64,000 nt of DNA, taken from assembly GCF_000186865.1 (NCBI RefSeq), contig NW_008705565.1, positions 2,226,796 through 2,290,795 of the forward strand. The letters run 5' to 3'. Made by a program: the position numbers and the translations under genes. Origin of the DNA: Aureococcus anophagefferens (Eukaryota; Sar; Pelagophyceae; Pelagomonadales; Pelagomonadaceae). Positions 5,216 to 57,012 of this stretch are shown in pieces. A model generated the notes under the pieces. It was given only the letters and a program-made list of their open reading frames with translations. It did no database searches and was not told the origin of the DNA. Positions within the stretch are counted from its first letter, which is position 1. The number at the start of each line of letters is the position of its first letter.

Positions 5216-6758
5216 CTAGACGACGTCGCCCGCGCGGATGGGGTTCTCCCACGACGGCCGGGGGGGCTCCTCGCGGGACGAGCGGCGGAACGCGGCGCCG
5301 AGGTTGCGCCGCGCGGAGCGGCCCGGGAGCCGGTCCGGCCGGCCGACGGGCGCCATCTCGACCTCGGAGTCGTCGTAGCGGCCGCGGGCCGACGGCGGCG
5401 TGCGCTGGCGCGCGGCGTCGCCCGCGCGCGCCGCGTCCCACATCTGCTGCGCGCGCTCCTGGCGCTCGAGCCGCGCGCGGGCCTTGGAGCTGTAGGACCA
5501 GCCGCCGGCGACGACGGCGACGAGGACGACAAAGCCCCCGGCGACGAGGAGAATGTCCTCGACGGACGTGCCGGAGGAATCGCCGTCGCCGCCGCCGCCG
5601 CCGTCCGAGTCCGCCGGCGGCGCGTCGCGCGACCCGAGGTCGGCCCGGTCGAGCGCCGCGGTCGACCGCGCGACGAGCGCGAGGGTCGCGGCGTCCTCGA
5701 CGACGCACTGGGACCAGGGCTCGGCCGTCGCCGCGGCTTCGAAGGCGCGGCGGAGGCCGCCGCCGGTCGCCGCCGCCGTCGCCGCGGCGACGAAGTCCGC
5801 GAGCACGGCGTCGACGGCGCCGTCGGCCACCACGGCGCTAACGGCCGCGTCGTAGGAGACGACGACGACGTTCGATTCGTTGCGCGCGCCGACGACGGAG
5901 ACCGCGAGCGGAGCGGTCTTGTTCGCGGGCGCGTGCGCTCCGAGGAGCGGCGCGATCGCGGCCTCGACGACCGCGCCGAAGAAGTGGCTCCGCGGGTCGA
6001 CCGCGGCGTCGTCGGCGACCGCGGGCGACACGCAGGCCATGGCGAGGCTCGAGCCGATCCACACGTCGCCGACGCGCGTCGGCGAGACCTGTGTGGAAAT
6101 CAACCACTGGTTTGGGGGGTCCCCACCAAACTTCAGAACTCTCTATCTCGATCAAATCGAAGTCGATTCGGCTGACTTTTGGACGAATCGATTGCTCTCG
6201 TCGAGTTCTCGAAGCATAGCCGAAAAGTCCGGCGCACTCCGTTCAATTACGCGCATATTGAAGTCTGGTTGAAGATTTGATTTCCACACAGGGCGAGACC
6301 GTCGGCGCGCTCGTCGTCGGCGCGAGCGTCGGCGCGCGCGTCGGCGCGGCGGTCCGGTTGTGCGTCGGCGCGACGGTCGGCGTAGAGGTCGTCGGCGACG
6401 TCGAGGGGGGCGCGCTCGTGGGCGCGCTCGTCGTCGGTGGCGACGAGGGCTCGCGATCCGTCGGCGCCGCCGTCGTCGGCGCGGCCGTCGTCGGCGCGGC
6501 CGCGGGCTCGCCGGTCGTCGGCGCGGGGATCATCGCCGTCGGCGCCGCCGACGGTTCCGCGTCCGCGGCCGGCGCCGCCGACGGCGCCGCCGACGGCGGC
6601 GCGGTCGCGGCGTCGGTCGGGCTCGCCGTCACGGCGGCGCTCGGTCGGGGACTTGGTTCCTTCGTCGCAGGCGTCACCGTCGGCGCCGAGGACGCGTCGT
6701 CGGCGGCCGCGAGCGCAGAGAGCGCCGCGGCGAAAATCGCGAGGCGTCGGCCGAGCAT
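5216..6758 (-). CDS. Thr/Pro-rich type I membrane (mucin-like) protein, split by an introner
   Basis: Complement of join(5216..6088, 6300..6758), 443 residues. The start ATG at 6758 opens a signal peptide (MLGRRLAIFAAALSALAAADD). Residues about 22-150 are a Ser/Thr/Pro/Ala stalk with repeated APTT and SAPT units, probably heavily O-glycosylated. A folded region of about 180 residues with two Cys and NKT/NES glycosylation sites follows, then a Gly/Asp/Ser linker, one hydrophobic membrane helix (LLVAGGFVVLVAVVAGGW) and a basic cytosolic tail of about 90 residues. The intron 6089-6299 is a family-1 introner. Joining gives SAPT-VSPTRVGDVW with the frame intact, because the target copy GTCTCGCC encodes VSP once. 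Function unknown; a surface or cell-coat role is inferred from the layout. Confidence 0.75.
6089..6291 (+). mobile_element. Introner, family 1, antisense to its gene
   Basis: 203 bp with terminal inverted repeats CTGTGTGGAAATCAA and TTGATTTCCACACAG. The 8-bp target duplication is GGCGAGAC at 6081-6088 and 6292-6299, a perfect match (GTCTCGCC in the gene sense). The spliced intron is 6089-6299 with a GT donor from the target copy and a CAG acceptor from the inverted repeat. The core contains TTCGGCTGACTTTTGGACGA. Relative to copies at 11089, 18155 and 42760 this one is inserted in the opposite orientation. Confidence 0.93.
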
Positions 6759-6926
6759 CCTCGAATGAACCTCTCCACAGCGAGAGTGAAGCTACTGAGA
6801 AACTGCACCCTGAAATTCAGGCTGAAACTCAGCCCGTCCGTGATTCGGCGTGAACGGGGAACGGCCCATAGGTCGGAACGTCCGCACCATCGCCACGCGG
6901 GGACCCCTTGTTAGGCACCGCGCGCG

Positions 6927-9900
6927 TCAGTTGCGGTTGCCGCCCATGTCCACGGAGAGGCCCGCCGCGGTGACGCGCTGGTCCTGGTCGGCCATGGCGC
7001 GCTCGAGCTTCTCGAGGAGGTGCTCGCGGTACTTGTCGAAGGGCTCGCCCCACTCGACGCACTGGCGGTTCTCGACGACCCAGAGGCGCATGTTCGTCGC
7101 CTCGATGAGCCGCGCGTCGTGCGTGACGCAGATGACGCCGCCGTCGTAGCCGTTGATCGCGTCGCAGAGCGCGTCGATGGTCTCGATGTCGAGGTTGTTC
7201 GTGGGCTCGTCGAGGAGGAGCATGTGGGGCGCGGCGAGGGACAGCTCGCAGAGGACGACGCGCGCCTTCTGGCCGCCGGAGAGGTCGCGCATCGCGATCG
7301 TGTGCGCGTGGCCCTGGAGGCCGTAGCGGCCGAGCATGTTGCGCACGGACTGGTAGGTCTCGTCGTTGAAGAGGCGCCGCAGGTAGTCCACGGGCGACTC
7401 GTCCATGGGCAGCCGCTCGACGAAGTGCTGGTTGTAGACGCCGATGCGGAGCCGCGGGTTCCGCTTGATCTCGCCCTCGGTCGCCGCGAGCTTGCCCGTG
7501 AGCAGGTGCAGGAGCGTCGTCTTGCCGCTCCCGTTGTTGCCGACGATGCAGACGCGTGAGTCCTGGTCGATGCCGAAGTTCATGTCGTTGAAGATGTGGG
7601 GCAGGTCCGGCGCGTACCGAAAGTGCGCGTCCATGACCTGGAGCACGGGCGGCGACAGCTTCGTCACGGGCGGGAACTCCATCTCCACGAGGTACTCCTT
7701 GGGCTTCTCGATGAGGGCCGCGACGTCCGCCGTGTCCTGGCCCGCGGCGATGGCCTGGGCCTTCTTGGACCGCGCGCCGGGCTCGCGCTTCGCCTTCGCG
7801 GCCTTCATCACGAGCTCCTCGGCCTTGGCCTTGGAGTTCGACTTGCCCTTGAGCGCGCGGAGCTGCTTCTCCTGCTTCTCCCAGGCCTTGAGCTGCGCCG
7901 CGCGCTTCTGCTGCTCCAGGGTCTTGAACGTGTCGTAGTTGCCCCGGTAGTGGTCGAGCGTCCGCTCCTCGCTAATGTGGAGCATCTCGTCGCAGACGCT
8001 GTTGAGGAAGTCCTGGTCGTGGGACACGACGAGGATCGTGTGCTTGTACTTTTGGAGGTAGTCGTCGAGCCAGATGACGGCGTTGAGGTCCAGGTGGTTC
8101 GTCGGCTCGTCGAGCATGAGCAGCACGGGCTCCATGAACAACGCGCGCGCGAGCGAGATGCGCATGCGCCAGCCGCCGCTGAAGAGCTTCGTCGCGCGCT
8201 GCTGCATCTCCGCCGAGAAGCCGAGGCCGAAGAGGATGCGCCGCGCCTTGGACTCGGCCGCGTGGGCGCCGATGGCCAGCAGCTCCGAGCCGACGGCGGA
8301 GAGGCGCTCGGACGTCGCCTGCTGGTCCTCCGCGGCGAGGCCGCCGGCCTCGAGCTTCGCCGCGAGGGCCTTCTCCTCGGCGAGGAGCGCGCTCCGCTCC
8401 GCGTCGGCGCGGACGACGGCGTCGACGGCGCAGGTGTCGTCGGCCTGGACCTCCTGCTCGACGTAGAGGCACTGCACGCGCGGCGGCGTCTTGAGGTCGC
8501 CGGACGCGATCATCTTCAGCAGCGTCGTCTTGCCGCGGCCGTTGGGGCCGACGATGCCGTAGCGCTTGCCGTGGGCGATGAGCAGGCTCGCGTCCTGGAA
8601 GAGGGTCTTGCCCGCGGCGGAGATCGTGAAGCTGTCGATCTTGACGTCGAGCGCGTTCTGCCACGCGGCGTCGTTCTCGTTGATCGCGCTCTGCGAGCAC
8701 GCGAACTGGGCGCCCTCGAGGGACGCGAGCTCCTTGGCCTTGAGCTCCTCGGCCTCGCGCTTCCGGGACGCGTAGTCCTTCTCGAGCTTGCGCTTCGCCT
8801 TGGAGCTCAGCGGCTTGCCGCCGTTCGCCGCGACCGCGCGCTCGAGGCAGATGTCGAACGTCGCCTCGACGACGGGCCCGGCGTTGGGGCCGAGCTTGTC
8901 GTTGGAGTCGTCGCGCCAGACGCCGTCGTCCTTGGACAGGAGGCCGCCGGCCATGAGCGCCGCCTTCTCCGCGTCGACGTCCGCCTCGCGCTCCGCGGCC
9001 CTGGCCCGCTCGGCCGCCGCGAGCTCCGCGAGGCGCGCCTCGTACTTCTTGATCTTCTCCGCGTACTTGGTTGTGTCCTCGCCCTTCTTGACGGCCTTGG
9101 CGAGCTTCTTCTCGTACTTGTCGAGGCGCTCCCGGAGCTCGCCCGCGTCGCCGCCGGCGCCGTCGTCGTCGTCCTCGGCCGCGGCCATGGCCGCCGCGAA
9201 GGCGCTCGGCGCCGCGGGGGGCGCGGCCCCCGAGTCCGCCGCGGCGGCGGCGGCGCCGAAGGCCGACTTCTTCTTCTTCTTGCCGCCGAACATCGCGTTG
9301 ACGTCCGCCGGCGCCGTCTCGTGCGGCCTCGGGCTCCGGCGCCTCGTCGCCGCCCTTGGACTTGAGCTTGCGCCGCTCGGCCTTGCTCATCTTCTTCTTG
9401 CCCTCCTGCTTCGGCGGCTCCGGCGGCGCCTCGGGCTCCGGCTCGGGCTCCGGCTCCGGCTCGGGCTCGGGCGCCGGCTCCGCCGCCTCCGCCTCCTCCT
9501 CGGACTCGTCGTCGGCGGCCATGGCGGCCATCGCCGCGGCCTTGCGCTGCGCCTTCTTGTCCTTCTTGCGGCCGCCGCTCGGCGCCGGCGCGGCGACCTC
9601 CTCCGCGGGCTCCTCCTCCTCCTCATCGGACTCGTCGGCGGCCATGGCGGCCATCGCCGCGGCCTTGCGCTGCGCCTTCTTGTCCTTCTTGCGGCTGCTC
9701 GCCGCGGGCAGCGGCGCGGGCGCGTCCTCCTCCTCGTCGTCGTCGTCGGCCTCGGCCTCCGGCTCGGCCGCCGCCTTCGCGAGCGGGTCCTCGTCCTCGC
9801 CGTCGGACTCGGCGGCCTTGCCGCCCTTCTTCGCCTTCTTCTGCTTGCGCAGCTCCGCGCGGCTCGGCTTCTTCGGCGCGCCGTCGTCCGCCGGCGCCGG

Positions 9901-10200
9901 CGCGGGCTCGTCCTCGTCGGTGCTGTCGCCGCGGTTCTTGCCCTTCTTCTTCGCCTTGCGCTCCTGCGCCTTCGTGAGCTGCTTCGCCGGCTCCGGCGCC
10001 GGCGGCTCGTCGTCGTCGGACTCGGCGCCCTTCTTGCCCTTGCCCTTCTTCTTGTTCCCCTTCTTCGTCGCCATGCCCGCGGGCTCGTCGTCGCCGTCGC
10101 CGCCCGCGGCGGCCATGGCCGCCTTGATGGGATCGACGTAGTCGTCGTCGTCGTCCGACTCCTGGCCGCGCTTCCCTTTCTTGCCCTTGGCCTTGCCCAT
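6927..10200 (-). CDS. ABCF1: ABCF1-type soluble ABC ATPase with long charged N-terminus (apparent frameshift)
   Basis: The start is the ATG at 10200 (MGKAKGKKGKRGQES). About 290 Lys/Glu/Asp-rich residues follow, including two near-identical copies of KKDKKAQRKAAAMAAMAAD. The conserved part, read from about 9335 to 6927, has ABC domain 1 (Walker A GPNGRGKTTL, signature FSGGWRMRISLAR, Walker B LLMLDEPTNHLDL), a Lys-rich linker, and ABC domain 2 (GNNGSGKTTL, LSGGQKARVVLCEL, LLLDEPTNNLDIE). This twin-cassette, membrane-free form with an acidic/basic N-terminus is ABCF1, which binds eIF2 and ribosomes in translation initiation. The two parts are offset by one frame near 9322-9335. One missing base would give EPEA followed by HETAPADVNAMFGG. 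An assembly indel is likeliest. Confidence 0.9.
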
Positions 10201-10282
10201 GGTGAGGCTCGACGGCGCGCGCGCGTAAGCCGACGCGGGAGTCGAGGCTCTCCTCAAACGCGCAATGGCGATGATTCGATGT

Positions 10283-10464
10283 TGCTTGAACTTCACCTTG
10301 CCTCGGAGGAGCAGCCCATCGTTGCTTCGTTCGATCGCAGCCCGACCCAGCGTGCGCGTCCGCAACGCGATGATGCTTGAACTTCACCTTGCCTCGTAGG
10401 AGCAGCCCATCGTTGCTTCGTTCGATCGCAGCCCGACCCAGCGTGCGCGTCCGTAACGCGCTGC
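10283..10464. repeat. Tandem duplication, 2 x 91 bp
   Basis: The block beginning TGCTTGAACTTCACCTTGCC at 10283 recurs at 10374. The two copies differ at only a few positions. It lies between the ABCF1 start (10200, minus) and a small plus-strand reading frame (10480), so it probably duplicates part of a divergent promoter or 5' leader. Confidence 0.85.
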
Positions 10465-10479
10465 GAACGCGCTTCGGCA

Positions 10480-10773
10480 ATGATGACGCCGGACCCCGAC
10501 AGCCCGACGCCCTCGGCGGCGACCGCCTCGGAGCCCGGCACGCCGTCGGAGTCGCCGTCGGAGCAGCGACGGTCGCTGGCGCTGGCGGCGGCGCTCCGGG
10601 ACGGGCTGCGCGACGGCTTCCTGGATCCCGCGCCGCAGAATCAGCTCATGCGCACGGGCGCCGCTGGCAGCTCCCGCAGCCCTGCGCCGCCGACCGGCCG
10701 GCGGCGGCGGCGCCCGCGGGCCGGAGCCGCGCGTCCCTCTTCGGCTGCTTCGACAAGATGTAGCCGGGTGTAG
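10480..10773 (+). CDS. Small Ser/Pro-rich hypothetical protein
   Basis: 97 residues from ATG-ATG at 10480. The first 35 residues are Ser/Thr/Pro/Glu rich. A short helix follows (LALAAALRDGLRDGFLDP) and then a basic Arg/Pro tail. I do not recognise it. It is supported only by an open frame with a helix-like segment and its position downstream of a tandem duplicated leader. It could be a chance frame in GC-rich DNA. Confidence 0.35.
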   Translation: MMTPDPDSPTPSAATASEPGTPSESPSEQRRSLALAAALRDGLRDGFLDPAPQNQLMRTGAAGSSRSPAPPTGRRRRRPRAGAARPSSAASTRCSRV

Positions 10774-10972
10774 ATGCGTGTTATTCCACGATGTCGCCGT
10801 GTGTGAATGCTTTTTACTCGGGCGCTCGGGCGGCTCCCCAGGCGGCGCGCGCCTATAGGGCGGGGGGCCTCCGGCGGCGCGAGGGGCGGGCGTCCGCGCG
10901 GTGGAGGCGGGCGCGTCGCGCAGCGTTGAGCACTTCGTTGCTGCGTCCGCGGTGGCCGCGTCGGGGTCGGTC

Positions 10973-12048
10973 CTAGACCGCGGCCGTCGACCCGTCGACG
11001 TCGACGGCCGCCGTGGCGGGGCCCGTCATGTCCTCGCCGTTTTTCGCGCGGAACGCCTTCACGGCCATCATCGTGCCGTAGGAGCCGCCTGCGCCGAATT
11101 CAAATCTTCAACTCGACTTCGATGTGAGCGTACGCGACAGTTTCGACGCAATCTCTTCGGCTGTGCTTCGAGAAATCGACGAGAGCAATCGATTCGTCCA
11201 AAAATCAGCCGAATCGACTTCGATTCGACCGAGCTCGAGAATTCCGAAGTTCGGTCAGGACCGCCCGTACCAGTGGTTGAATTCGGCACGGGGAGCCGCC
11301 CATCATGCCGCGGATGTGCTTCTCCTTGACGCGGATGGCCGTGTCGTACTGGTTCTGGAGCGTCCACATCTTGCCGCCGTAGTCCGCGCCGATGTTGTGC
11401 ATCTTCTCCTCGATCTTCTCCGTCGCGATCTCGAGCTCCTCCTCGTCCATCGTCACGTACCGCGCGAGGTTGATCTCCTGCTCCGTGGAGCAGTACTCCT
11501 TGTGCGCCGGCGAGCACTGCTTCTTCATGCGGTAGGTCACGAAGCCCTTGAGCGAGTCCCAGGACCGGCCGTCCTCGTAGACCTGGAGCTCGTCGGCGGC
11601 GCCGAACATGAGCGTCGGCAGGCTCTCGACCTGGTACTTCTCGCAGAGCGACGCGCCGTCGTGCTGGCAGTCCACCTGGGCGATGAGTTTGTCATCGTCG
11701 CCCGCGAACTCCTTGTAGAGGCTCCCCCAGTTCGGGTCGAGCACCTTGCCTGCGCGCGGCGCCGCGGTGTCGCGACGGTTTCGCGGCGCGCGCGGCGGGG
11801 ACGCCGCGCGGCGCACAGGCCGTGAGCCAGGAGGCGCAGAAGTTGATGAAGCACGTCTTGTTCGCCGTCAGCTCGTCGAAGGTCTCCAGCGTGAGCATGG
11901 TCACGTTCGCCGGCGGCGCCATCCAGATCATGTCCTCGAAGGTCTTGGGAAAGGGCCGCTTCTCGACGACCTCCTCGTCCTCGAACTCGAGCTCCTCGCA
12001 CCGCGCCAGCCCGAGGGCGGCGGCGCCGAGCAGGAACCGGCGCAGCAT
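10973..12048 (-). CDS. Secretory thioredoxin-fold (PDI-like) protein with degenerate active site
   Basis: Complement of join(10973..11088, 11300..11749, 11817..12048), 265 residues. It starts at ATG 12048 with a signal peptide (MLRRFLLGAAALGLARC). A thioredoxin fold follows: CFINFCASWLTAC-KVLDPNW, then IAQVDCQHDGASLCEKYQVESLPTLMFG, the usual VDC and cis-Pro strand. The active site that is WCGHC in PDI reads WLTAC, so the first Cys is lost. The C-terminal third is charged helix. The 67-bp intron 11750-11816 is GT-AG. The second intron, 11089-11299, is a GC-AG introner, and joining gives MMGGSYGTMMAVKAF. Likely an ER-lumen protein that binds rather than oxidises thiols, or acts through one Cys. 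Confidence 0.8.
11089..11291 (-). mobile_element. Introner, family 1, sense to its gene
   Basis: 203 bp. On the plus strand it begins CTGCGCCGAATTCAA and ends TTGAATTCGGCACGG (inverted repeats with two mismatches). The target duplication GGAGCCGC at 11081-11088 and 11292-11299 is perfect (GCGGCTCC in the gene sense). The spliced intron is 11089-11299, GC-AG. Using the alternative GT five bases into the element would shift the frame of the last exon, so the GC donor is preferred. Confidence 0.92.
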
Positions 12049-13278: not shown

Positions 13279-13312
13279 GCGCGCGCGTGTGGTTATGCGG
13301 TCGCGGGTCGGG

Positions 13313-17544: not shown

Positions 17545-18977
17545 ATGCGGCGCGCCGTCGGGGCGGGCCTCGCGGCCCTGGCGGCGTCCAAAGTGCCGGA
17601 CGCGGACTGGGGCGACGCGACGTGCGCGGCGAAGGATCCGGAGGTGCGCTTCGTCGTCCTCGAGGAGATGCCCGAGAGCGTCACCCACGAGCTCATCAAC
17701 GCCTGGAGCGACGGGTTCCGGCTGCCCACGGTCGTGCGGAACGCCTTCAACAACACGCTAGGCTGCGACTTCGACTACCTCGACGACGACGTCCAGCTCA
17801 AGACCAAGTTCGGCTACCTCGGCGGCTTCAACGAGCGCGACAAGGCGGCGTTCCCGTGGCGGCGCGTCCGCGAGACGCTGCAGTCCAAGTCGGAGAAGAT
17901 CTACGGGAGCTTCGGCTACGGCACGGGCAACTACGAGCCCGTGCACAAGGCCGCGCTCCGGGCCATCAAGGCGCGCATCGTGCCCGACTTGTTCACCGAA
18001 TTGGAGTACCCGGGCCACGTCATCTTCGGCTCGACGAACGAGACGGAGGTGTCGACGTCCTGGCACAACGCCATCGACGCGAACCTCCTCTTCCAGCTCT
18101 GCGGCCAGAAGCTCTGGTACACCATGGAGAAGCTGCCCGAGGGCCAGTACCCGGCTGCGTGGAACTCGACCGCTGGTTCGGGGGGTCCCCGCCAAACTTC
18201 AGAACTCTCGAGCTCGGTCACATCGACGTCGATTCGGCTGATCTTTGGACGAATCGAATTGCTCTCGTCAGGTTCTCGAAGCACAGCCGAAGAACTTGCG
18301 TCGAAACTGTCGCGTACGCTCACATTGAAGTCGGGTTGAAGATTTGAGTTCCACGCAGGTACCCGGTGCAGGTCGCGCCGCACGCGCACGGCGTCGTCAA
18401 CGGCAAGGGCGTCGTGAACCCGTCCTTCGAGCACGGCGTCCAGGAGGCGTTCAAGCACAACCAGCCCTGGACCGACGACATGACCCACGCGGCGACCCAC
18501 TTCGTCATCGAGCCCGGGGACCTGCTCATCAACCCGCCGTTCTCGTGGCACGCGATCAAGATCAACGACACGTCCGTGTCGCTGAGCCTCCGCGGCGACA
18601 CGAAGGACGTGCTCGTCTGGCTCGCGGGCAAGTATTTCGGGGGCGACATCAACAACCCGTTCCTCGCCTGCTTCGCGACGCTCTTCAACGACTACTACGG
18701 GCCCTTTGTCGACAACAAGCTCGACCCGTGGTACGTCCACTACGGCAAGAAGGTCGTCGCCTGGGTGTTGGGCATCTCCACGCTCGACCTGAACTACGCG
18801 CTCTACGGCGGCCGCGCCTGGACGCTCATGCGCAACTACCGCATGCACTTCGACGAGTACCAGGGCGACAAGGCGCCGATGCACGGCGGCCTCAAGCACG
18901 ACTTCGAGAGCTTCGTGCCGCCGGACCCCGGCGCCGCGGCCGCGGTCCCCGCCGCCGCCCAGAGGAAGGTCTACTGA
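17545..18977 (+). CDS. Cupin/JmjC-like protein, split by an introner
   Basis: join(17545..18146, 18359..18977), 406 residues. The cupin-8/JmjC pattern is visible: TSWHNAIDANLLFQLCGQKLWYTM (about residues 170-194), then EPGDLLINPPFSWHAIKI near residue 250-267, where WHAI supplies the distal His. In active Fe(II)/2-oxoglutarate enzymes the first element is HxD. Here the aligned residues are H-N-A, so the Asp ligand may be missing, or the later Asp may substitute. The C-terminal 130 residues are helical (FLACFATLFNDYYGPFVDNKL). The intron 18147-18358 is a GT-AG introner. Splicing restores EGQYPVQVAPHAHGV in frame. The start is the first ATG after a leader without other starts. Substrate unknown. 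Confidence 0.72.
18155..18358 (+). mobile_element. Introner, family 1, sense to its gene
   Basis: 204 bp, beginning CTGCGTGGAACTCGACC and ending GAGTTCCACGCAG. The target duplication GTACCCGG is perfect (18147-18154 and 18359-18366). The intron is 18147-18358, with donor GT from the target copy and acceptor CAG from the element end. The core carries TTCGGCTGATCTTTGGACGA and an internal CACAGCCGAA that mirrors TTCGGCTG. Confidence 0.94.
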
Positions 18978-41671: not shown

Positions 41672-43881
41672 CTACTCCGGCGCGGGGCTCTCCGGGGCCG
41701 GCGCGGTTTCCGGCGGTGGCCGGAGGTCCTCGGCGTTCTCGACGTACTCGACCTGGGCCTTGAGGGCCTTGGCGAAGGCGTGGAACTCGCCCGTGATGGG
41801 GACCAGCTTCGCCTTGAGGTCGCTGAGCTGGGCGAGGAAGGGTGCGTAGCCGCAGTGGGCCACGGCGACGCCGAGGTGGGCGTGGACGTCCTTGTCGGAC
41901 GCGCCCGTCGCCTGGAGGAGCACGCCCTTCATCGCCGCGGGCAGGAGCGCGTCCGGCGTCCCCGCGAGGAACGTCTCGACGAAGACGTCGAAGGCGTTCC
42001 TCGCGAGGTCGCAGGCCTCGACGAGCTTCTCCTCGAGGCCCAGGACGAGCGCCTGCCACGTCTGCGACGTGAGCACGCGCCGGTCGCGGGGCCCGTGGAG
42101 CCGCGTCCACCCCCGGACGGCCTGCTCGATGGACGGCATGGCCTCGTCGACGCAGCCCCGGAAGATGCGCAACGGCACGAGGTGGGACAGCGTCGACAGC
42201 GTGTAGGAGTGCATCTCGCCGTAGTCGCGCGCCTGCGCGCCGTAGACGCGCGCGAGGATCGGCTCCGCCTCCTTCGCGAGCTCGAACTCCACGAGCGTCA
42301 GCGCGAGGGCGACGGCGGCGTCGAGCGTGTCCGGGCTGTTGGGCCCCTCGAGCGCCTCGAGCACCTCGTGCGCCTCGCGGATGAACTCGAGCGCCTCGTC
42401 GCGGCGGCCGACGCGGTCGAGGACGCGCGACACCTCGGCCTGGACGCGCGCGCCCTCCGAGTGGCGCAGGCCGAGCTTCTCCTGGCAGTCCTTGAAGCAT
42501 AAAAAGCCGATGGCGATGGCCTCCTCGTCGTCGCCCTCGGCGAGCGCGTACTTGATGAGGTTCCGCTGCGCGCGGATCGCGCCGACGTCGTCGCCGCGGT
42601 TCACCGCGAGCGCGTGGCGGCCCCGCGCGACCATGGCCGCGAGGTCGAAGGCCTCGGCGCAGCCGGAGCCCAGCAGGTCCTCGAGCGCGAGCATGCGCAC
42701 CTCGTCCTTGTTGTCGATCGTGCTCACCGTGAGCGCCTTGACGCCGACGACGCCCGCGCCTGCGCGGAACGCGAATCTTCGACCCGACGTCAATGTGAGC
42801 GTAATCGACCGTTTAGACGCCGCAAGGCTTTCTGCCGTGCTTCGAGAACTCCATGAAGAGCAATCGATTCGTCCAAAAATCAGCCGAATCGACTTCGATG
42901 TGACCGAGCTAGAGAATGTCAAAGTTTGGTCAGGCCCACCCAAACCAGTGGTTGAATTCCACACGGGCCCGCGCGGTGCAGGTCCCCGAGCATGGCCGTG
43001 CGCTCCGCGTGGACCGCCTCCTGGCCCAGAAAGTAGGGCCGCAGCTTCGCGTAGGCCGCGACGCTCGACGGCGACAGGCCGTAGAAGGACCGGAGGTGGA
43101 GCTGGCACTCGCAGTTGTGCCAGACGTCGACGTCCGGGTCGTCGCTCGGGACCTTGACGCGCACGGTGTAGAGCGCGTCGCGGTAGCCGTTCCAGCGCGG
43201 GGCGTGGAAGTAGTTCTTGAGGCGCACGATGGACACGGCGCACGTCGACGCCAGAGAGGCGAAGCCGATGCCGGCGATGACGAGCTCGATCTCGGAGTCG
43301 CAGACGATGGAGCAGCGGACGACGTCGTTGATCTTGCAGTTCATGCCGTCGTACCGGCCCCGCACCTTGGCCTCGGCGCGCTCCCGCGTCTTCAACGGCG
43401 CCATGACGAGCTCCGCGTTCGCGGATCCCGCGAGCATCTTCATCTCGCCGTGGAACGTGTCGTAGGCCGCCTCGGCCGCGGCGAAGACGTCGTCGAGGGT
43501 CATGGCGAGGGGGTTCTTGCCGTGCAGGTCCTGCTGGCGCGCCGTGTGCTCGAAGGTCGCGAACTTGGCCGCGTAGTTCTTCGGGTCGTCGCGTTTCGCC
43601 ATATGCTCGAGCCGCCGCTTCGTGTTCAGCGTCTCCTCGACCATGTCGAAGAAGGCGCGCGCCGTCTCGCCGATGCGCACCGCGCCCTTGCTGTTCGAGA
43701 AGGCGCTCTGGAGGGCCCCCATCTTCGACGCGTCGTACTCGTGGCGCGCGCGCGTCGGCGCCGCCGGCGCCGCCTCCTCGCCGGCCTCCTCGTCCGCCGG
43801 GGCGCCCAGCTCCGGCGCCGAGCTCGACGCCAGCAGCCGCGCGGCGTCGAGGCCGCCGCCCGCCGCCGCGACGTCCGCCAT
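41672..43881 (-). CDS. RelA/SpoT-fold nucleotidyltransferase-like domain plus TPR, split by an introner
   Basis: Complement of join(41672..42759, 42975..43881), 664 residues, ATG 43881. Residues about 150-290 resemble the RelA/SpoT synthetase fold: INDVVRCSIVCDSEIELVIAGI, VSIVRLKNYFHAPRWNGYRDALYTVRV and HNCECQLHLRSFYGLS, matching the KNxF..P..xGYRD and E(x)Q patterns. The C-terminal half has TPR-like repeats (ALEFIREAHEVLEALEGPNSPDTLDAAVALALTLVEFELAKEAEPI; SIEQAVRGWTRLHGPRDRRVLTSQTWQALVLGLEE). Real (p)ppGpp synthesis is not shown. The intron 42760-42974 is a GC-AG introner; joining gives LHRAGVVGVKALTVSTIDN. Divergent from the next gene, with 221 bp between starts. Confidence 0.75.
42760..42966 (-). 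mobile_element. Introner, family 1, sense to its gene
   Basis: 207 bp. On the plus strand it starts CTGCGCGGAACGCGAATC and ends TTGAATTCCACACGG. The target duplication GCCCGCGC is perfect (42752-42759 and 42967-42974; GCGCGGGC in the gene sense). The intron is 42760-42974, GC-AG. A GT donor just inside the element (GTGTGG) would break the frame after RAGP. Confidence 0.92.
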
Positions 43882-44102: not shown

Positions 44103-45468
44103 ATGCTCGAGTGCCTGACGCTGCCGTGCTTCTTCGACAGCGCCGCGGACATGAGCCTGGTCGCGCGGCCCCTCTGCGTCTACGCGCAGTGGATTTTGAG
44201 CGCCGGGTCGACGAGCGCGGAGACGACCGTGGACCCGACGACGCTGCCGCGCATGCTCCGGTGCCACCTCGTGCTCCTCATCCTCGTGACCATCGTCATG
44301 CTCTTCGAGCACCTCGTCGAGGGCGTCGTCGACGTGCCGGCGTTCGCCATCTCCGCGGTGCAGCTCCTCTGCGCGTCGGGCGCGCTCGCGGTGCTCAACG
44401 CGCCGCGGCGGAACGCCGCGGGGCTCGCGAACCGGCGGTCCGCGCTGCTGGGCTGCTTCCAGCACGCGTCGAACGTCTGCCTCATCGTCGACGTCGTCTT
44501 CTCGGCCGTCTGCGTCGTCGGCGGCCACACGGAGAACGTCGTGAGCGTCGACCTCGCGGTCAAGGTCGCCCTCTTCCTCTTCGTGACGTCGCTGCCCTTC
44601 TTCGCGCTCGACCGCGAGCTCGCGGTCGGCCGGTCGGAGCTCACGTTCGTCTGGAAGATCTGGACGATCGAGGCCGTCGACTTCTGCACGATCCTGTACG
44701 GCGCCATCGACTACGCGCAGCAGGAGCGGAGCGACGGCGAGAAGGACCTCGACGCCTGGAACCGGGAGCACGCCATCCCCGCGGGCGAGCCGCCCGCGAA
44801 CTGGGACTGGGACGACTTCTGGCTCGACTGGTCGCCCGCGCTCCAGGTCTACGTCGCCGCCTTCGCGCTCAACGCCGTGCTCTTCGGCTGCCTCGCGTCC
44901 TGGATTTTAGTGCGCGCGCTCACCAAGGCCGACGACGAGCCGACGGTCGAGCGCGGCGGCTACATGTTCGTCGCGACCTACGTCTTCATCCTCGACGCGT
45001 TCACGGACCTGCCCGCGCGGCTCGGGGCCGCAAAAAGGGTGATTCGGCGTCGCTGCGACGCGCGCGTGCCGCGCGCGCGCGTTCCGGGAAACACGTCCGC
45101 GCGTCGAGGGCGCTTCGAGAGACGATCGCTCGTCCGAGCATCAGCCGAAACGAGTGGAAACCGGCCGAGATGGGAGTTTTTTGACGTTGGGAATGTCGCA
45201 CCCTCGTGCCGCCCAGGTGTGGCTCGCGTCGCTCGTCACGCGCGCCTACGTCCACAACATCTACCTCACCTTCAACGTCATCGTCAACCTCCTCGCGCTC
45301 GTCCGCGGCGTCTACATCTGCCTCGTCGCCTGCCTCCTGCCGCCGGGCAGCCTGTCCGCCGACGCGCCGGAGACGCAGCTGACGCGCTACGGCGCCGACG
45401 GCGCGGGCGCCTACAACCCGGTCCGGCGGCAGCAGCCGGACCGGCGCGCGCTCCCGGAGGCGCCATGA
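44103..45468 (+). CDS. Multi-pass membrane protein, split by an introner
   Basis: join(44103..45014, 45217..45468), 387 residues. At least seven hydrophobic segments are visible, including LRCHLVLLILVTIVMLFEHL, AISAVQLLCASGALAVL, LIVDVVFSAVCVVGG, VALFLFVTSLPFFAL, LQVYVAAFALNAVLFGCLASWILVRAL and LTFNVIVNLLALVRGVYICLVACLL. The family is not recognised. The C-terminal tail is hydrophilic and ends EAP. The intron 45015-45216 is a GC-AG family-2 introner. Removal restores DAFTDLPVWLASLVTRAYVHN, a continuous membrane-associated segment, with phase 0 on both sides. Confidence 0.72.
45023..45216 (+). mobile_element. Introner, family 2, antisense relative to the 49314 copy
   Basis: 194 bp, starting CGGGGCCGCAAAAAGGGTG and ending CACCCTCGTGCCGCCCAG, imperfect inverted repeats. 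The core has CATCAGCCGAAACGAGTGG. The target copies are GCGCGGCT (45015-45022) and GTGTGGCT (45217-45224). The two differences are both C in the donor copy versus T in the exon copy, at CpG positions. The intron is 45015-45216, GC-AG. Confidence 0.87.
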
Positions 45469-46656: not shown

Positions 46657-46657
46657 G

Positions 46658-48897: not shown

Positions 48898-50085
48898 ATG
48901 GCGTCCCTGGAGCGCTTCGCCGCGGCCTGCTTCCGGAGCGGGGAGCGCTGCGCGCTGGCCTGCGCGTCCCTGGCCTACGGCGGCTCCCTGGCCTACGGCG
49001 CCCGCGGCGGCGCCGCGCTCTGCGAGGCGTCCAAGGAGCCGCCAAAGGAGCCGGCGCCGCCGGAGCCGGAGCACGGCGGCGAGCGCTACCTGGCCTACAG
49101 CGCGTCGCTGGCGCGCCTCAAGGTCGTGCTGCTGAAGACGAAGCTGGCCATCGCGAAGACGACGCTCGCGAAAGGCGCCGCGCTCAAGACCGCGGCCGCG
49201 GGCAAGGCCGCGGCGGTCAAGACGGCGGCCGCCGAGGGCGCGCGCTACGTCGCCTACAGCAGCGACGTCGGCGAGTCCATGCGGCCCGTGCTCAAGCCCT
49301 GGATGGTCACGGCCAGGGCGGGAAACGGGAGCGAAATTCCCAACTTCAAAGGCTCCTCTCTCGGCCGTTTTCCACTCGTTTCGGCTAATTTTTGGACGAG
49401 CGATCATCCCTCGGAGCGCTCTCGAAGCGTGGATGCTATTTCTGGAACGCGCGCGCGCGGAACACTCACATTGAAGCGAACTTGAATCACTCTTTTCCTG
49501 CCCAGGTCACGGCGACGTACGGCGTCGCCGTCGGCTACGTCTGCTACGACGCCGGCTCCGACCCGCGCGCGAATCGACGCTTCGACCCGACTTCAATAGT
49601 TCGACACGATCACTTCGGCTGTGCTTCTGTAGATCTCGATCAGAGCAATCGATTCGTCCAAAAATCACCCGAATCGACTTCGACGCGGCCGAGCGAGAGA
49701 ATTTCGACGTCCCAGCTCACCGGTCGATCTCCACACAGGCTGCGACGTGCGCCGGAAGCAGCTCCTGGGCCACGACTCGGACGTGCTCGCGGCGACGGCG
49801 GCCTACAAGCTCACGTTCCACGCCCTCGTGTCCCTCGCCATCCCCGCCTTCGTGATCCACACCGCCGTCCACAAGTCGCACGCGCTCTTCTCGATGGACG
49901 CCTTCGCGGCCATGCCGCGCGCGGTCAAGTTCGGGCCGACGGTCGTCGGGCTGGGCCTCATCCCCTTCATGCCGCTCATCGACGAGCCCGCGGAGCACGT
50001 CCTCGAGGCGGCCTTCGACCGCGCGTGGCCCGCGTGGCGCGTCGGCCACGTCCCCCACGGCCACATCGACCACAAGGCCGACTAG
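48898..50085 (+). CDS. MTFP1: Mitochondrial fission process protein 1 (MTP18/MTFP1 family), two introners
   Basis: join(48898..49305, 49506..49554, 49739..50085), 267 residues. The MTP18 pattern is rebuilt only after both introns are removed: YVAYSSDVGESMRPVLKPWMVTATYGVAVGYVCYDAGCDVRRKQLLGHD, then YKLTFHALVSLAIPAFVIHTAVHKS, and VVGLGLIPFMPLIDEPAEHVLEAAFD. In animals this inner-membrane protein promotes mitochondrial fission. The N-terminal 120 residues carry Ala/Lys repeats (LKTAAAGKAAAVKTAAAEG) and two earlier YGGSLAYGARGG elements. The middle exon is only 49 bp, flanked by a family-2 and a family-1 introner. The ATG at 48898 gives MASLERFAAACF. Confidence 0.88.
49314..49505 (+). mobile_element. 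Introner, family 2, sense
   Basis: 192 bp, beginning CAGGGCGGGAAACGGG and ending CTCTTTTCCTGCCCAG. The core has TTTCGGCTAATTTTTGGACGA. The target duplication GTCACGGC is perfect (49306-49313, 49506-49513). The intron is 49306-49505, GT-AG, phase 0. Confidence 0.93.
49563..49738 (-). mobile_element. Introner, family 1, antisense to its gene
   Basis: 176 bp. The plus strand starts CCGCGCGCGAATCGACGC and ends GGTCGATCTCCACACAG. The core matches other family-1 copies in reverse (GCAATCGATTCGTCCAAAAA). The target copies are GCTCCGAC (49555-49562) and GCTGCGAC (49739-49746), one mismatch. The intron is 49555-49738, GC-AG, phase 1. Confidence 0.9.
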
Positions 50086-50193
50086 GGGTTCTGTTTACTA
50101 CCCGTGCTGCTGTCGACGCGAACACACCGGAGGTCCGTGGGAGCATCCTTAGGCGCGCGCGCGCCGAGCGTCACCGCGGGGCTTTGGACGCGC

Positions 50194-51148: not shown

Positions 51149-53826
51149 CTACCACCCGCTCCGCCCCCGGGACCGGTCGATGGCGAGCGGCGACCGCGCG
51201 GACGACGACGCGAGGCTCGACGCCGGGGCCGCGTCCGAGAACGCGCCGAGGTAGTCGAAGGACGGCTCGAAGTCCGGCGGCGGGAAGGCGAGGGCCGCGT
51301 CGTCGACGACCGACGGCAGGAGCGCCTGGCGGCCCGGGAGCCCCCGGAGGATCGCGGCCGCGTCCGCGGACAGCGGGGCCGCCGCCGCCGGCGCGGGGCC
51401 GCCGGCGCCGGGCCGCGGCGGCGGCGGCGGCGGCGCGTCGAGGGCCCGGACGACGGCGGCGGCGCGCCGCTCGACGGTCTCCGCGCGGCGCGTCGCGACG
51501 GCGAGCTGCTTGCGCGCCTCGAGCCTCTCGCGGCGGAGCGCGTCGAGGCTCGCGGCCGCGTCCGCCGCGCAGGCCTCGGCGGCGCGCGCGGACCGCTCCG
51601 CGTCCGCCGCGTCGCGCGCGGACCCGGCGGCGGCGGCGGCGGCGGCGGCGGACGCGACGCGGGCGTCGCCGCCGTCCGCGTCCCGGAAACGCCCGTACGC
51701 CGCGACGTCGCGCGCGAGGCTCTCGTCGCTGTCCGGCGGCGGGTCGTCGAGCTCCGCGACGGAAAGGGGCGTCGGCGGGGCCGCGGGCGGCTCCGCGGAC
51801 GTGTCGTCGCTCGACGAGTCCGGCGGCGGCGGCGCGCCGCGCCGCTTCGCCGCGGACCGCGCGACGGCCGCCTCGAGCGGCGCCGCGCGGACCGTCGCCG
51901 TCGCCCGCCGGACGTCCGGCCGCCGCGCCTCGGCCGTCGCCTGCTCGAGGACGACGTCCCCGTCGCGGAGTCCCGCCGGCGTCGCCCGCCGGACGTCCGG
52001 CCGCCGCGCCTCGGCCGTCGCCTGCTCGAGGACGACGTCCCCGTCGCGGAGTCCCGCCGGCGCCGCCGCCGCCCCGCGGTGGAAGCCGAGCGCGAGGGGC
52101 CGCGGCAGCTTCGGCAGCTCCTCGAGGACGCCGGCGTAGGAGAGCCCCGCGTGGGGCCCGACGCGCACGAGGACGTCGCCGACGCGGACGCCCATGGCCT
52201 CCGCGGGCCCGCCGGCGGCGACGCGGATCACCGGCGGCGGGCCCCGAGAATCCGCCGGGTCCTCGTCGATGGACAGGCCCAGCGTCCCCGCGTCGAAGGT
52301 CACGGCGAAGGCCTCGCGCGGGACCGGCGGCGCGGCCGTAGTTCGCGGCGCGGCGGCCGGGTCCTCGGCGGCGTCGCCGGCGAAGCGGGCCTCGCGGCGC
52401 CGCGCCTCGTCCCTGAGCGCCGTCGCCGCGGCGAGGGCCGCGGCGTCGGCGTCGGCCGACGCCGCTGCGAGGGCCTGGGGCGACGCCGGCGGCCGGAGGA
52501 GCCAGTCCTGGAAGCCCGACGCGCGGCGCTCGCGGCCGACGGCGCGCGCGGACCCGCAGCAGACCTTGAGCGCCTCGACGAAGCGCTCCCCGGCGAAGAG
52601 CATGGTCTCCTGGGCCGGGTCGCCCGCCGTCTCCTCGTAGGCGAGGTTCAGGTCCGTGAACGCGTCGCGGAACGACGTGCCGAGCCTGGCGATGCATTCA
52701 ACGCGAACGCGCCGCGCGCGCGCGCGCCACCAAAAAATTCAAGAGCGCTCCGAGCGATGATCGCTCGTCGAAACATCAGCCGAAACGAGTGGACACCGGC
52801 CGAGAGCGGCGCCTTTGAAGTTGGGGCACGCTCGTCCCGCGCCGCGCCGCGCGACGCGAAGTGGAGCTCCTTCGACGCGGGCCGCGAGGCCAGCGACGCG
52901 TCCGCGCGCAGGCCCTCGCCGGAGATGGCGCTCAGGGCCGACGCGAAGCCCGGCCGCGCGACGCCCTCCTCCTCGACGCGCACCGCGAAGCGGAATCGCT
53001 CCGCGGCGCCGCCGCGCGCGAAACCCCCGAGCCGCTCCGCGAGGCTCGGCGCGCGCTCGGAGAAGCCCTCGACGACGTCGCACTCGCCGAGCCAGACGCT
53101 CTTGAACGCGCGCTTCCGGCCCGGCCGCGGCGCCGCGACGAGGCGCCGCGCGTCGCCGCCGTGCTTGAGATCGTCGAGGTCGCCGGGGCCCTCGAGCCGC
53201 TCCCAGCAGAGGTGCTCGAGGTCCGCGGAGCAGCAGACGCGCCGCACGTGCGCGCGGCCCCCGAGCTCCGAGCCCCAGCGCTTGTCGAGCACCGCGCCGC
53301 GCACGAGGGCCATGGCCGCGACGGGGTCGACGCGGCGCCGCCGCGCGGCGCCCGCCGCGATCGCCAATTCGCACTTGGCGTGGAACTCGCCCTCGACGTG
53401 CTCGACCTCGATGCCCTGGTACTCGTGCATCAGCGCGCTCACGAAGCGCAGCGGCAGCGGCCGCGGCCCCGCGGGCGCGTCGTGGCGCCGCCGCAGCGGC
53501 GCCGCCCCGCCCGCGTGTCGCCGGAGCAGCGCCCGCTCGCACGCGCGCGCGTCGCCGGCGAACGCCGCGCGCTCGCCGTCGCCCAGCACGCACTCGTCCG
53601 TGGGCCGCGCGGCGCACCGCGTCGCGAGCACGCGCTCGACGCAGTAGCACCAGCCGCCGCCGTGGCGAAAGCTCACGAGCGCGAAGGGCAGGGGGCCGTT
53701 GTGCGGCACGTCGACGGACACGTCGACGAAGCGCGTGCCCCAGGTCGGCCATTTCTGCACGTCGCGCCCGAAGAAGGTGCCGTTCTTCCGCGGCGCGACT
53801 CGGCGGGCGTGGTCCGAGGCGGCCAT
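51149..53826 (-). CDS. PDZ-domain protein with tandem repeat, split by an introner
   Basis: Complement of join(51149..52685, 52853..53826), 836 residues, ATG 53826. The first 320 residues form an unrecognised region with a Cys-rich strand (GGGWCYCVERVLATRC) and YQGIEVEHVEGEFHAKCELAI. A helical module follows (LNLAYEETAGDPAQETMLFAGERFVEALKVCC). The PDZ domain (about residues 440-515) has VTFDAGTLGLSIDED, IRVAAGGPAEAMGVRVGDVLVRVG and PRPLALGFHRG. After it a 27-residue unit containing LRDGDVVLEQATAEARRPDV is present twice, then a long Ala/Arg coiled region. The intron 52686-52852 is a degenerate family-2 introner, GC-AG, joining FAS-LGTSFRDAFTDLN. Function unknown; a scaffold is inferred from PDZ. 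Confidence 0.68.
51901..52062. repeat. In-gene tandem repeat, 2 x 81 bp
   Basis: TCGCCCGCCGGACGTCCGGC at 51901 recurs at 51982. The 81-bp units are nearly identical and encode 27 residues each in the PDZ protein. Confidence 0.9.
52686..52844 (-). mobile_element. Introner, family 2, degenerate, sense to its gene
   Basis: About 159 bp. In the gene sense it has CCCCAACTTCAAAGG, CCACTCGTTTCGGCTGATG and GAGCGATCATCGCTCGGAGCGCTC, matching the 49314 copy, but the terminal repeats are eroded. The target copies are GCGCGGCG (donor side, 52845-52852) and GCTCGGCA (exon side, 52678-52685), 6 of 8 matching. The intron is 52686-52852, GC-AG, phase 2. The donor position is chosen by frame and target similarity. 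Confidence 0.78.
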
Positions 53827-54103
53827 AACGGGGCAGCCTTTTTTTGGACGGCTGCATCTCCGGGTTCAACGTCGAGGGTGCCGCGGCCGCGTTCGCGTTG
53901 TCGCAGGGAGTGCCACAAGTCTGAAGACCTCGGAGAGAGCTTTTGGCGACGTCTCGGCGCGGGTCTGGTGGCTTGCGGGGCGAGAGGTGGATGAGTCGAG
54001 TGGCCGGGCGAAACTCGACGCACTGCCTCAACACCGGCCAGCACCGCTCGGAATACAAATCTCCACCCATTTGCTCAACCCGAACCTCACGCACCGCTCG
54101 ACC

Positions 54104-54678
54104 ATGTACAAGCTTCTTATGCTCATCACGTCTGCCTGTGCCCTCGGCACGAACAAGAAGGCCCTCAAGGTGCGCGACGCCTCGTTCCGCGCGCGACGCC
54201 CCGATTTTCGCGCGATTCGAATCGGTCAGAACATCGCGCGCCAAACCCACGCCTCGCCCCCCCGCCCGCCCCTCCTAAAGGCCCCTCGCCCGCGCCCACC
54301 CCCCGCACGCCGTAGATCCGCGGCGGCGCGGACGTCGGCCCCATCACCGCGGACCTCGCGGTCGGCGTCGGCAAGACGCTCGCGGGCGTGACCGTCGGCG
54401 GCGCGCTGCTCGACAAGTACGCGGGCGTGGGCTCCACGACCATCGTCGACGCGGCCTCGGGCGGCGTCTTCACGACCAACGCCGTCATCGCGGCGACGAC
54501 CTACTGCACGTCGTGCCTCACGTCCTCGTTCTCGACGATCGAGGTCGTGGCGTCGCTGTGGATCGCGTCCGTCGCGCTCAAGTTCAAGGACAGCGGCGTC
54601 AACGAGGACTCGCTCAAGGCCAACCTCGTCGAGACCGCCATCGCCGCCGTCATGGGCGTCATCGCCTTCGTCGAGTAG
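54104..54678 (+). CDS. Small membrane/secreted hypothetical protein
   Basis: join(54104..54169, 54316..54678), 142 residues. Exon 1 is a 22-residue hydrophobic start (MYKLLMLITSACALGTNKKALK). The 146-bp intron has a CAAG/GTGCGC donor and GCCGTAG acceptor. Exon 2 encodes Gly/Ala/Thr/Val-rich sequence, GPITADLAVGVGKTLAGVTVGGALLDKY, TNAVIAATTYCTSCLTSS, VVASLWIASVALKF and a final ETAIAAVMGVIAFVE. Two or three weakly hydrophobic segments suggest a small membrane protein. No family is recognised. Confidence 0.6.
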
Positions 54679-54860
54679 GCGCCGCGACCGGCCCCGCGGC
54701 GTCGACCAAGCGCCCGCCGCGCGCGCGACTCGTCCGCCCACCGCCCGCCGCCCCATCCACCCATCGCCGGAGTCTTCCGTGCACCGGATGCCGCGGCCGG
54801 GACCACCAAGTTAAGGATACGCGCCTCTTCCCGGTTGTTGAAGGCCACGGAGCAGGCAAC

Positions 54861-57012
54861 ATGCTGCGGCAGACGATGATGGCTCTCCGCATCCGGCGAG
54901 CCCTCGCGGCCGCGCCGCGCCGCGGCATCAGCAGCGGCGGCGTCGTCTGCAGCGCCGAGGTGCGCGCCGCGCTGGACCGGCGCGGCCCCGTCGTCGCCCT
55001 CGAGTCGACGATCATCACCCACGGCATGCCCTACCCGAGGAACCTCGAGGTGGCGCGCGCCGTCGAGGCGCGCGTGCGCGCGGGCGGCGCCGTGCCGGCG
55101 ACGGTCGCCGTGCTCGACGGGAAACTGCGCGTGGGCCTGAGCGACGCCGAGCTCGAGCGCGTCGCCGTCGCCGGCGACCGGGGCGCCGCGGTCAAGTGCA
55201 GCCGCCGGGACCTCGCGGACGTCGCGAGCCGGAGTGCCAACGACGGCGCGCTCGTCGGCGCGACGACGGTCGCCGGCACGGCGGTGGCGGCGCACCTCGC
55301 GGGCGTCGAGGTCTTCGCGACGGGCGGCATCGGCGGCGTGCACCGCGGCGCGGAGGCGACGTTCGACGCGTCCGCCGGGGCAGGAAAAGAGTGATTCGAG
55401 TTCGCTTCAGCATGAATATTCCGCGCGCGCGCGTTCCGGAAAAGCATCCACGCGTCGAGAGCGCTCCGAGAGATGATCGCTCGTCCAAAAATTAGCCGAA
55501 ACGAGTGGAAAACGACCGAGATACGAGCCTCCAAAGTTGGGAATTTCGCACCCTTTTCCTGCCCAGGTGTCCGCGGACCTCGTCGAGCTCGGCCGGACGC
55601 CCATCCTCGTCGTCTGCGCGGGCGTCAAGAGCATCCTGGACGTGCCCAAGACGCTGGAGGTCCTGGAGACGCAGGGCGTCGCCGTCATCGGCTACGGCAC
55701 GGACGACCTCGCGGCGTTCTTCGCGGCGCGGTCGAGCGACAACAACAAGATCAACCGCGCGCCGCTGCGCTACGACGACGCCGCGGGCGTCGCCGGCTGG
55801 CTGGCGAAGAACGCGGAGCTCGGCCTCGCGAGCGGCGCCGTCCTCGCCGTGCCGAACCCGGCGCCCATGGACGGCGACGCGATCGACGGCGCGATCGCCG
55901 CGGCGCTCGAGGACGCGGCCGCGCGGGGCGTCTCGGGCAAGGACGCGACGCCCTTCCTCCTCGCGAAGCTCGAGGAGGTCACGGGCGGCGCGTCGCTGGA
56001 GGCGAACATCGCCCTCGTGCTGAACAACGCGCGCGTCGCCGCGGAGATCGCCGTCGCGCGCGCCGGCGGCGGGCCGGCGCGGCGCCCGCCCGACGTCGCC
56101 GTCGTCGGCGCGTCGACGGTCGACGTCGTCGGCCGCGCCGGCGGGCCCTGCGCGGGGACGTCGGCGCCGGGCGCCGCGTCGACGACCTTCGGCGGCGTCG
56201 GCCGCAACGTCGCCGTCGCGGCCGCGCGCGCCGGCGCGAGTACGACGCTCGCGACGGCCGCGGAGCCGCGGTCCCTCGCGGCGCTCGCCGCCGACGGCGT
56301 CGACGCGTCCTTCGCCGCGGCGACGGCGGCGTCGTCGACCTACGTCGCCGTCCACGACGGCGCGGGCGACCTCGTCGGCGCCGTCTTCGCGGAGGACGCG
56401 GCGCCGCGGCCGGCGGCCGGCGCCGTCGCGGCGGCCGTCGCGGGCGCGCGCGTCGTCGTCGCCGACGCCAACGGCGACGCCGCGACCTACGCCGCCCTCC
56501 TCGACGCCCTGACCGACGACCAGGCCCTCTGGCTCGAGCCCACGTCCGCGGCCAAGGCCGGCGCGGCGTTCGCGGCGCTGCTCCCGCGCGTCGCGGTCGT
56601 GACGCCCGCGGAGCGCGAGCTCGACCCGCTCCTCGCGGCCCTCGGCGCCGACGTCGCCGGCGGCGTCGGCGAGCGGGCCCTGCGCCTCGCCGAGGCCATG
56701 CGCGAGGCCGCGGGCGACGCCGGCGACCGCGCGGTCCTCGTCACGCGCGGCGACCGCGGCGCGCTCCTCGCCGTCGCCGGCGACGACGTCGTCACGTCCT
56801 TCCCCGCGCCGAAACCGCCGCGCGTCGTCTCGTCCAACGGCGCCGGCGACGCGCTCTGCGGCGTCGCCGCGGCCGCCGTCGCGCGCGGCGCGGATCTGCG
56901 ATCCGCGGCGCGCGCGGGGCTCGCGGCCGCGGCGCTGACGCTCGGCGTGCCGGGCAGCGCGCCGCCGGGCGTCGACGGGGCGTGGCTCGACGGGATTTTG
57001 AGCGGGAAGTAA
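54861..57012 (+). CDS. Bifunctional pseudouridine-5'-phosphate glycosidase / pseudouridine kinase, split by an introner
   Basis: join(54861..55367, 55567..57012), 650 residues. Residues about 25-330 are PsuG (indigoidine-synthase-A family): VALESTIITHGMPYP, VKCSRRDLADV, TTVAGTAVAAHLAGVEVFATGGIGGVHRGAE and FD-VSADLVELGRTPILVVCAGVKSILDV, then NIALVLNNARVAAEIA, which supply the expected Glu, Lys, Asp and Asn. Residues about 355-650 are a PfkB kinase: VAVVGASTVDVVG, GGVGRNVAVAAARAGA and the catalytic SSNGAGDALCGVAAA. The kinase makes pseudouridine 5'-phosphate and the glycosidase cleaves it to uracil and ribose 5-phosphate. Fused forms are known in fungi and animals. The ATG at 54861 adds a possible targeting leader. 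Confidence 0.93.
55376..55566 (+). mobile_element. Introner, family 2, antisense relative to the 49314 copy
   Basis: 191 bp, beginning CGGGGCAGGAAAAGAGTG and ending CACCCTTTTCCTGCCCAG, a good inverted repeat. The core has AAAAATTAGCCGAAACGAG. The target copies are GCGTCCGC (55368-55375) and GTGTCCGC (55567-55574), one C/T difference at a CpG. The intron is 55368-55566, GC-AG, phase 0. Removal restores the conserved TFD-VSADL active-site segment. Confidence 0.93.

Follow-up and report, generated by a model that had tools for sequence, protein, structure and literature searches.

How little must a mobile element bring with it to become an intron when it lands in a gene? The question is raised by a 64-kb stretch of DNA (hereafter, the window; GC content 72%) from the 49.05-Mb genome (86 contigs) of Aureococcus anophagefferens, in which nine transposon-like introns (introners) had been predicted from the sequence. 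Aureococcus is a brown-tide alga in which mobile elements become new introns on landing in genes, and introners are a leading explanation of mass intron gain. The introners of A. anophagefferens have reportedly been described by Huff, Zilberman and Roy, and this is said to be one of the two species for which a DNA-transposon mechanism has been argued, so that the elements, the species and the class of mechanism are already published. What is added here is the probable source of the 5' splice site (donor), which appears to be taken from the target site duplication and to be mostly GC. The elements are very probably non-autonomous DNA transposons, similar to miniature inverted-repeat transposable elements (MITEs), that act as introners with a donor derived from the duplication.

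In the mechanism that we propose, a transposase would insert an element of about 200 bp and duplicate 8 bp of the target. The element would supply the 3' splice site (acceptor), the terminal CAG in gene sense, whereas the 5' splice site would be the first dinucleotide of the upstream copy of the duplication, GT or GC (hereafter, GY); one splice site would thus be carried by the element and the other recruited at insertion. With splice sites at the start of the duplication and the end of the element, splicing would take out the element plus 8 bp and, therefore, bring back the old reading frame. Family 1 would be usable in either orientation and each form of family 2 in one, and the persisting insertions would be those with a duplication starting with GY. 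The splicing of these elements is itself predicted from the sequence.

An nhmmer search of the window with profiles of both families, built from clean copies, returns the nine predicted copies and no others. Family 1 is 203 bp long (CTGTGTGGAA...TTCCACACAG) and family 2 is 192 bp long (CAGGGCAG...CTGCCCAG); without their duplications, the nine elements measure 154–207 bp, which agrees with the upper but not the lower end of the range given in the original prediction (159–207 bp). A 20-base core, TTCGGCT(G/A)ATTTTTGGACGA, is common to both families, with 0–3 mismatches in all nine copies (for example, at 49380..49399 on the plus strand). Genome-wide, this core is matched exactly at 1,908 places, compared with none for its reversed control, so the nine copies are not a product of chance. 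The claim that the two families are related through this core is borne out by the profiles, each of which finds members of the other family over model positions 26–185 or so, down to E=3e-11; these cross-matches around the core make one origin of both families likely. The inverted repeats and 8-bp duplications were also described correctly, the recount yielding five perfect duplications, two with one mismatch and two with two.

For comparison, the first 30 places with an exact core on contig C1 were taken in contig order (loci L009–L038). Perfect duplications are present in 24 of these copies, 22 at the boundaries set by a script and two (L010 and L034) with other boundaries, and mismatches are found in L013 (4), L016 (3), L022 (2) and L033 (2). 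A repeated sequence that is coextensive with introns of many unrelated genes and is accompanied by duplications and inverted repeats is an introner, and the repeats, together with the in-frame introns in 29 of the 30 sampled copies, support the assignment to the kind described in Aureococcus.

The ends of the elements bear on their use in splicing. Both ends of family 1 read CTG, which makes CAG available whichever way the element is inserted. On the core strand of family 2, sense copies are mostly CAG...CAG and antisense copies CTG...CTG, and T at position 17 is found in all five aligned CTG copies compared with 3 of the 16 others; we read the CAG and CTG forms as probable mirror-image sublineages, each spliceable in one direction. 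The core occurs in both orientations relative to transcription, so that a role at the DNA level, such as transposase binding, fits better than an RNA signal. In 16 copies chosen without regard to an exact core, divergence from the consensus within the core is 4.5% in family 1 (9 of 200 bases) and 6.7% in family 2 (8 of 120), compared with 14.6% and 12.1%, respectively, outside it, a contrast that is only indicative because the consensus derives mostly from copies picked by the exact core.

The upstream duplication copy begins with the putative donor dinucleotide, and the acceptor CAG consists of the element's own last three bases in gene sense. A pattern for the 3' end of family 2, in which the following bases are free except that base 8 is not A, occurs at 539 places, with 0 places genome-wide for the reversed control. 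At 100 of the 100 listed sites (of 539), which are the exon-side copies of the duplication, CAG is directly followed by GY, against a background of 19.6% of coding-sense dinucleotides. These sites comprise 63 GC and 37 GT; given that GC accounts for 76.4% of the coding-sense GY background, GT is favoured only 1.9-fold. In a pool of 53 distinct copies, base composition gives a clear gene direction for 47; at the automatic boundaries, 41 of these read GY-AG along the gene (family 1, 12 in sense and 8 in antisense orientation; family 2, 14 and 7, respectively). GC is the donor in 25 of the 41 and in 16 of 29 from the 30-copy sample (the samples of 41, 29 and 100 sites overlap). The donor shows little conservation past GY, with G at position 3 in 49 of 100 sites and, at positions 4–6, no enrichment of A, G and T, the bases of the usual donor consensus.

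Two further readings of the target sites were tried and rejected. A demand for GY by the transposase would not explain why GY tracks gene direction in both element orientations, lying on the gene-sense side of 26 copies with a sense core and 15 with an antisense core. A palindromic target preference, GYnnnnRC, is not supported: the pattern was seen at 19 of 41 sites in the first sample, but the larger sample has it at 33 of 100, versus an expectation of 26.6% (p=0.17). A search for U1 small nuclear RNA with Rfam RF00003 gave no match in the genome, and the control genomes were likewise without a match. Some duplication copies differ at position 2: in those of 45015–45224, 55368–55574 and L033, the donor copy starts with GC and the exon copy with GT, and in L022 the reverse is true.

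In this genome, the frame, and usually also the strand, can be read from the near-100% GC at third codon positions, independently of splice signals. When the unit of element plus 8 bp is excised, the codon-position GC signature stays in phase for eight of the nine window copies, and eight have 8-bp duplications with 0–2 mismatches at in-frame boundaries; eight of the nine introns have a length that is not a multiple of 3. Four family 1 introns combine a perfect duplication, an acceptor CAG and a frame in phase: 6089..6299 on the minus strand (donor GT in GTCTCGCC at 6292–6299, element 6089–6291, 14/14 inverted repeat, core on the plus strand and antisense to the gene, whose strand was set by splice signals, base composition being ambiguous there); 11089..11299, minus (donor GC in GCGGCTCC, element 11089–11291, core sense); 18147..18358, plus (donor GT in GTACCCGG, element 18155–18358, core sense); and 42760..42974, minus (donor GC in GCGCGGGC, element 42760–42966, core sense). 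The family 2 intron at 45015..45216 on the plus strand (donor GC in GCGCGGCT, exon copy GTGTGGCT with two mismatches, element 45023–45216, acceptor CAG, core antisense) is also in phase. The gene for MTP18 holds two introners on the plus strand, 49 bp apart, for which the frame was accordingly taken from the outer side only: a family 2 intron at 49306..49505 (donor GT in GTCACGGC, element 49314–49505, acceptor CAG, core sense, perfect duplication) and a family 1 intron at 49555..49738 (donor GC in GCTCCGAC, exon copy GCTGCGAC with one mismatch, element 49563–49738, acceptor CAG, core antisense). The protein from the spliced gene matches MTP18 (PF10558, E=8.6e-25).

The GC donor is best examined at the protein level in the gene for pseudouridine-5'-phosphate glycosidase (PsuG), which contains a family 2 intron at 55368..55566 on the plus strand (donor GC in GCGTCCGC, exon copy GTGTCCGC, element 55376–55566, acceptor CAG, core antisense). 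The GC-AG splice yields the protein ...GGVHRGAEATFD|VSADL.... No gap opens at the junction when this protein is aligned with the glycosidase structure 4gij (E=1e-77), which we take to be that of the E. coli enzyme, or with the proteins P0003 and P0004, of which P0004 is from Pelagophyceae sp. CCMP2097. The restored protein lends indirect support to removal of the predicted intron from the transcript. The intron-free protein is 96% identical to one deposited A. anophagefferens protein, the differences being a deletion at the introner, two substitutions and a C terminus of another sequence; the window is accordingly assigned to this species, possibly to another strain of it. Among deposited proteins of A. 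anophagefferens, P0001 and P0002 differ exactly at this introner. The former is reproduced by a GT-AG intron at 55338–55566, which deletes conserved residues, and the latter by a GT-AG intron at 55391–55520 within the element, so that intron sequence is retained in the protein; hence, the insertion is present in the genome from which P0002 was deposited. Both match what GT-AG misreadings of a putative GC-AG introner would give, and a start with GC instead of GT can be misread by gene-finding programs.

Other junctions are less telling. The first intron of L025, with a GC donor, leaves no gap at the junction against the trifunctional enzyme alpha subunit 6dv2, and at the second the alignment is uninformative because it has gaps near the junction. 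The ClC channel of L009 shows no junction gap in a weak alignment, the comparison of the L018 proline dehydrogenase with a structure is weak (E=1e-4), the alignment of the L019 light-harvesting protein has gaps near the junction, and for L008 the structure comparison gave no match.

These results bear on the possibility that GC is not a donor at all and that the element's own GT is used, with the duplication kept in the messenger RNA. An own-GT family that adds 12 bp is known from an Aureococcus sp. (PMC9860276, Fig. 2F, in the available part of that article), and family 1 carries GT in its first bases, CTGTGTGG. Such splicing, however, needs no GY at the start of the duplication, which all 100 listed family 2 sites have, and the GC-AG splice of PsuG gives a conserved protein with nothing added; this explanation is very improbable.

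The prediction that each copy lies inside coding sequence and that its removal restores the frame holds for eight of the nine but not for 52686, and the further claim that none lies outside coding sequence agrees with the wider sample, in which 29 of the 30 copies are in-frame GY-AG coding introns. In 27 of these, the script puts the intron ends exactly where the duplication begins and the terminal CAG finishes; given that the script tolerated a range of offsets, these 27 are the solid part of the 29, the other two having adjusted ends (L010, exact with alternative boundaries, and L032, shifted by one base). L033 resolves as an in-frame intron, with outer boundaries set by hand, despite a nested element of about 0.88 kb. 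This nested element (L033, approximately 1583–2457) has inverted ends GGGTCAACTTCCCAATAAG/CTTATTGGGAAGTTGACCC and a CACA duplication and lies within a family 1 introner.

In an automatic test, 27 of the 30 copies have coding sequence on both flanks, compared with 242 of 381 control points for 120-base flanks (Fisher p=0.0024) and 223 of 376 for 200-base flanks (p=0.0007); a stricter threshold retains 24 of 30 (p=0.004 and 0.001, respectively). In 25 of the 27 coding-flanked copies, both flanks are in one frame at the automatic boundaries. Thus, by this test, introners are enriched in genes in this genome; the available part of PMC9860276 reports gene enrichment for 161 of 175 introner genomes. 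Uniform insertion followed by survival only at genic GY sites predicts mostly non-coding copies and copies that break the GY rule, yet there are none among the 100 listed sites, so that selection for splicing is insufficient on its own; insertion must be biased or loss outside genes rapid, presumably the reason for the near-confinement to coding sequence. So near-total a restriction allows ideas on how these elements select or retain their insertion sites to be tested stringently.

Confinement to coding sequence would also follow if the introns were reverse-spliced into other transcripts and copied back to DNA. Both the coding location of 29 of the 30 sampled copies and the lack of a GY-free site among the 100 listed fit this route, but 8-bp duplications and inverted repeats mark DNA transposition, and both families are found in either orientation relative to the gene, so that RNA-based spread is very improbable. 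That the copies are ordinary unspliced MITEs, tolerated within the long open frames that a GC-rich genome leaves, as at 45023 and 49563, which introduce no early stop, is barely credible when eight of the nine window introns are not multiples of 3, the GY after the CAG end at all 100 listed sites is left without a reason and a conserved enzyme is interrupted unless the 55376 copy is removed.

Several observations weigh against the mechanism proposed here. The decayed family 2 copy at 52686..52839 on the minus strand (nhmmer, 91.5 bits) has uncertain boundaries, those at a near-match duplication being out of frame, and is not confirmed as an intron. Six of the 47 directed copies lack GY-AG at the automatic boundaries (L013, L016, L032, L033, L034 and 52686); L013, L016, L032 and L033 were later resolved by hand, whereas 52686 was not, and neither was L034, which does not resolve as an in-frame intron. 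The duplications of L013 and L016 have 4 and 3 mismatches although the elements are young. Finally, no transposase with introner ends was found in the DNA seen when five Pfam families were searched genome-wide.

A broader proposition, to which we give slightly less than an even chance, is that the spliceosome of this alga needs little beyond a GY at a fixed distance of 8 bases from the element and takes GC almost like GT, that most introner introns are GC-AG, with some deposited models misread, and that coding sequence is where copies insert or are retained, to a far greater degree than selection for splicing would achieve, with a bias of the order of 100-fold, a back-of-envelope figure that assumes about 60–75% coding DNA and derives from the 0 of 100 listed non-GY sites and the 1 of 30 sampled copies that does not resolve. 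Should GC prove to be the donor in most copies, gene models and introner tallies that assume GT-AG would miss part of what this genome contains, and the species would offer a natural setting in which to study the minimal requirements of a 5' splice site.

The search for a mobilizing transposase gave little. PF05699 (hAT), PF10551 and PF18758 have no match in the whole genome. PF13359 matches at four places, where the fetched flanks contain no introner ends: the profiles do not match, and the 12-base end is matched only weakly, with two mismatches. PF21787 (P-element type) has one match, a broken gene with a divergent introner-like stretch (64 bits); given how frequent introners are in this genome, the stretch is no evidence of kinship, and the gene's own ends were not found in the DNA seen around it. 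At this locus (L048 4458–5000 and L049 1–1200, on contig C25 of genome G000 near 178,000), at least six in-frame TAG codons precede the introner-like stretch. The negatives for PF05699, PF18758 and PF21787 are weak because none of the three matched any control genome, and a gapped-pattern search for long elements, which found nothing, used a badly designed pattern. In the viral collection, the only exact core match lies in an open reading frame of a phage-like contig with 33–48% GC and was taken as chance.

The copies in the genome number an estimated 5,000 or so (range 3,000–8,000), given 1,908 exact cores and an exact core in about 4 of 10 unbiased copies (4 of 9 in the window and 6 or 7 of the 16 that were chosen without regard to an exact core). 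Nine copies per 64 kb extrapolate to about 6,900 genome-wide, and a profile search of three other 10-kb stretches found no copies. The density in the window, originally taken as notable and as a sign of recent activity, is thus ordinary for this genome, and the nine copies are not near-identical as described, differing outside the core by 3–23% from the family consensus. Recent activity itself is supported by copies elsewhere with 98–99% identity to the consensus, and not by the nine. Among the best 40 matches of family 2, 5 are at 99% and 35 at 98%; for family 1, the best 40 range from 99% down to 93%; none of these matches is identical to the consensus in either family.

Comparison with known systems is based on the available parts of three articles. 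Aureococcus introners are mentioned in PMC7789003 and PMC9481584, and the published A. anophagefferens introners resemble those described here in species, length (about 210 bp), direct repeats and inverted repeats. Their splicing motifs, however, are called canonical in PMC7789003, whereas GC donors form the majority here (25/41, 16/29 and 63/100). In PMC9860276, GC donors make up 0–50% per introner family; the GC majority lies outside both statements, and we make no claim that it is unreported. The family 4 introner of Aureococcus sp. TARA (PMC9860276, Fig. 2F) comes from the same genus and has the same 8-bp duplication, but brings donor and acceptor alike and lengthens the transcript by 12 bp, whereas here the donor would lie in the duplication, with nothing added in the cases tested. 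The introner of Symbiodinium microadriaticum (PMC9860276, Fig. 2B) shares the inverted repeats but has a duplication of 4 rather than 8 bp. The introner elements of Amoebophrya (PMC7789003) also combine inverted and direct repeats with non-canonical splice sites, but their splice dinucleotides are highly variable and their direct repeats span 3–5 nt, in contrast to the GY-AG rule and 8 bp seen here. In the related pelagophyte Pelagomonas calceolata (PMC9481584), intron lengths peak at about 210 bp, the length of an introner, a likeness in length alone.

After both families were masked, no further introner family was detected among the low-GC repeats of the fetched DNA; of those left, the window contributes one tandem repeat and L040 two local repeats. 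Outside the nine copies, low-GC stretches (below 53% in 120-base windows) occur at 57261–58100 amid the 72% GC of the window. Two 81-base copies stand in tandem at 51892–52053 (98% identical), and a 96-base segment forms a tandem repeat at 10277–10463 (96% identity).

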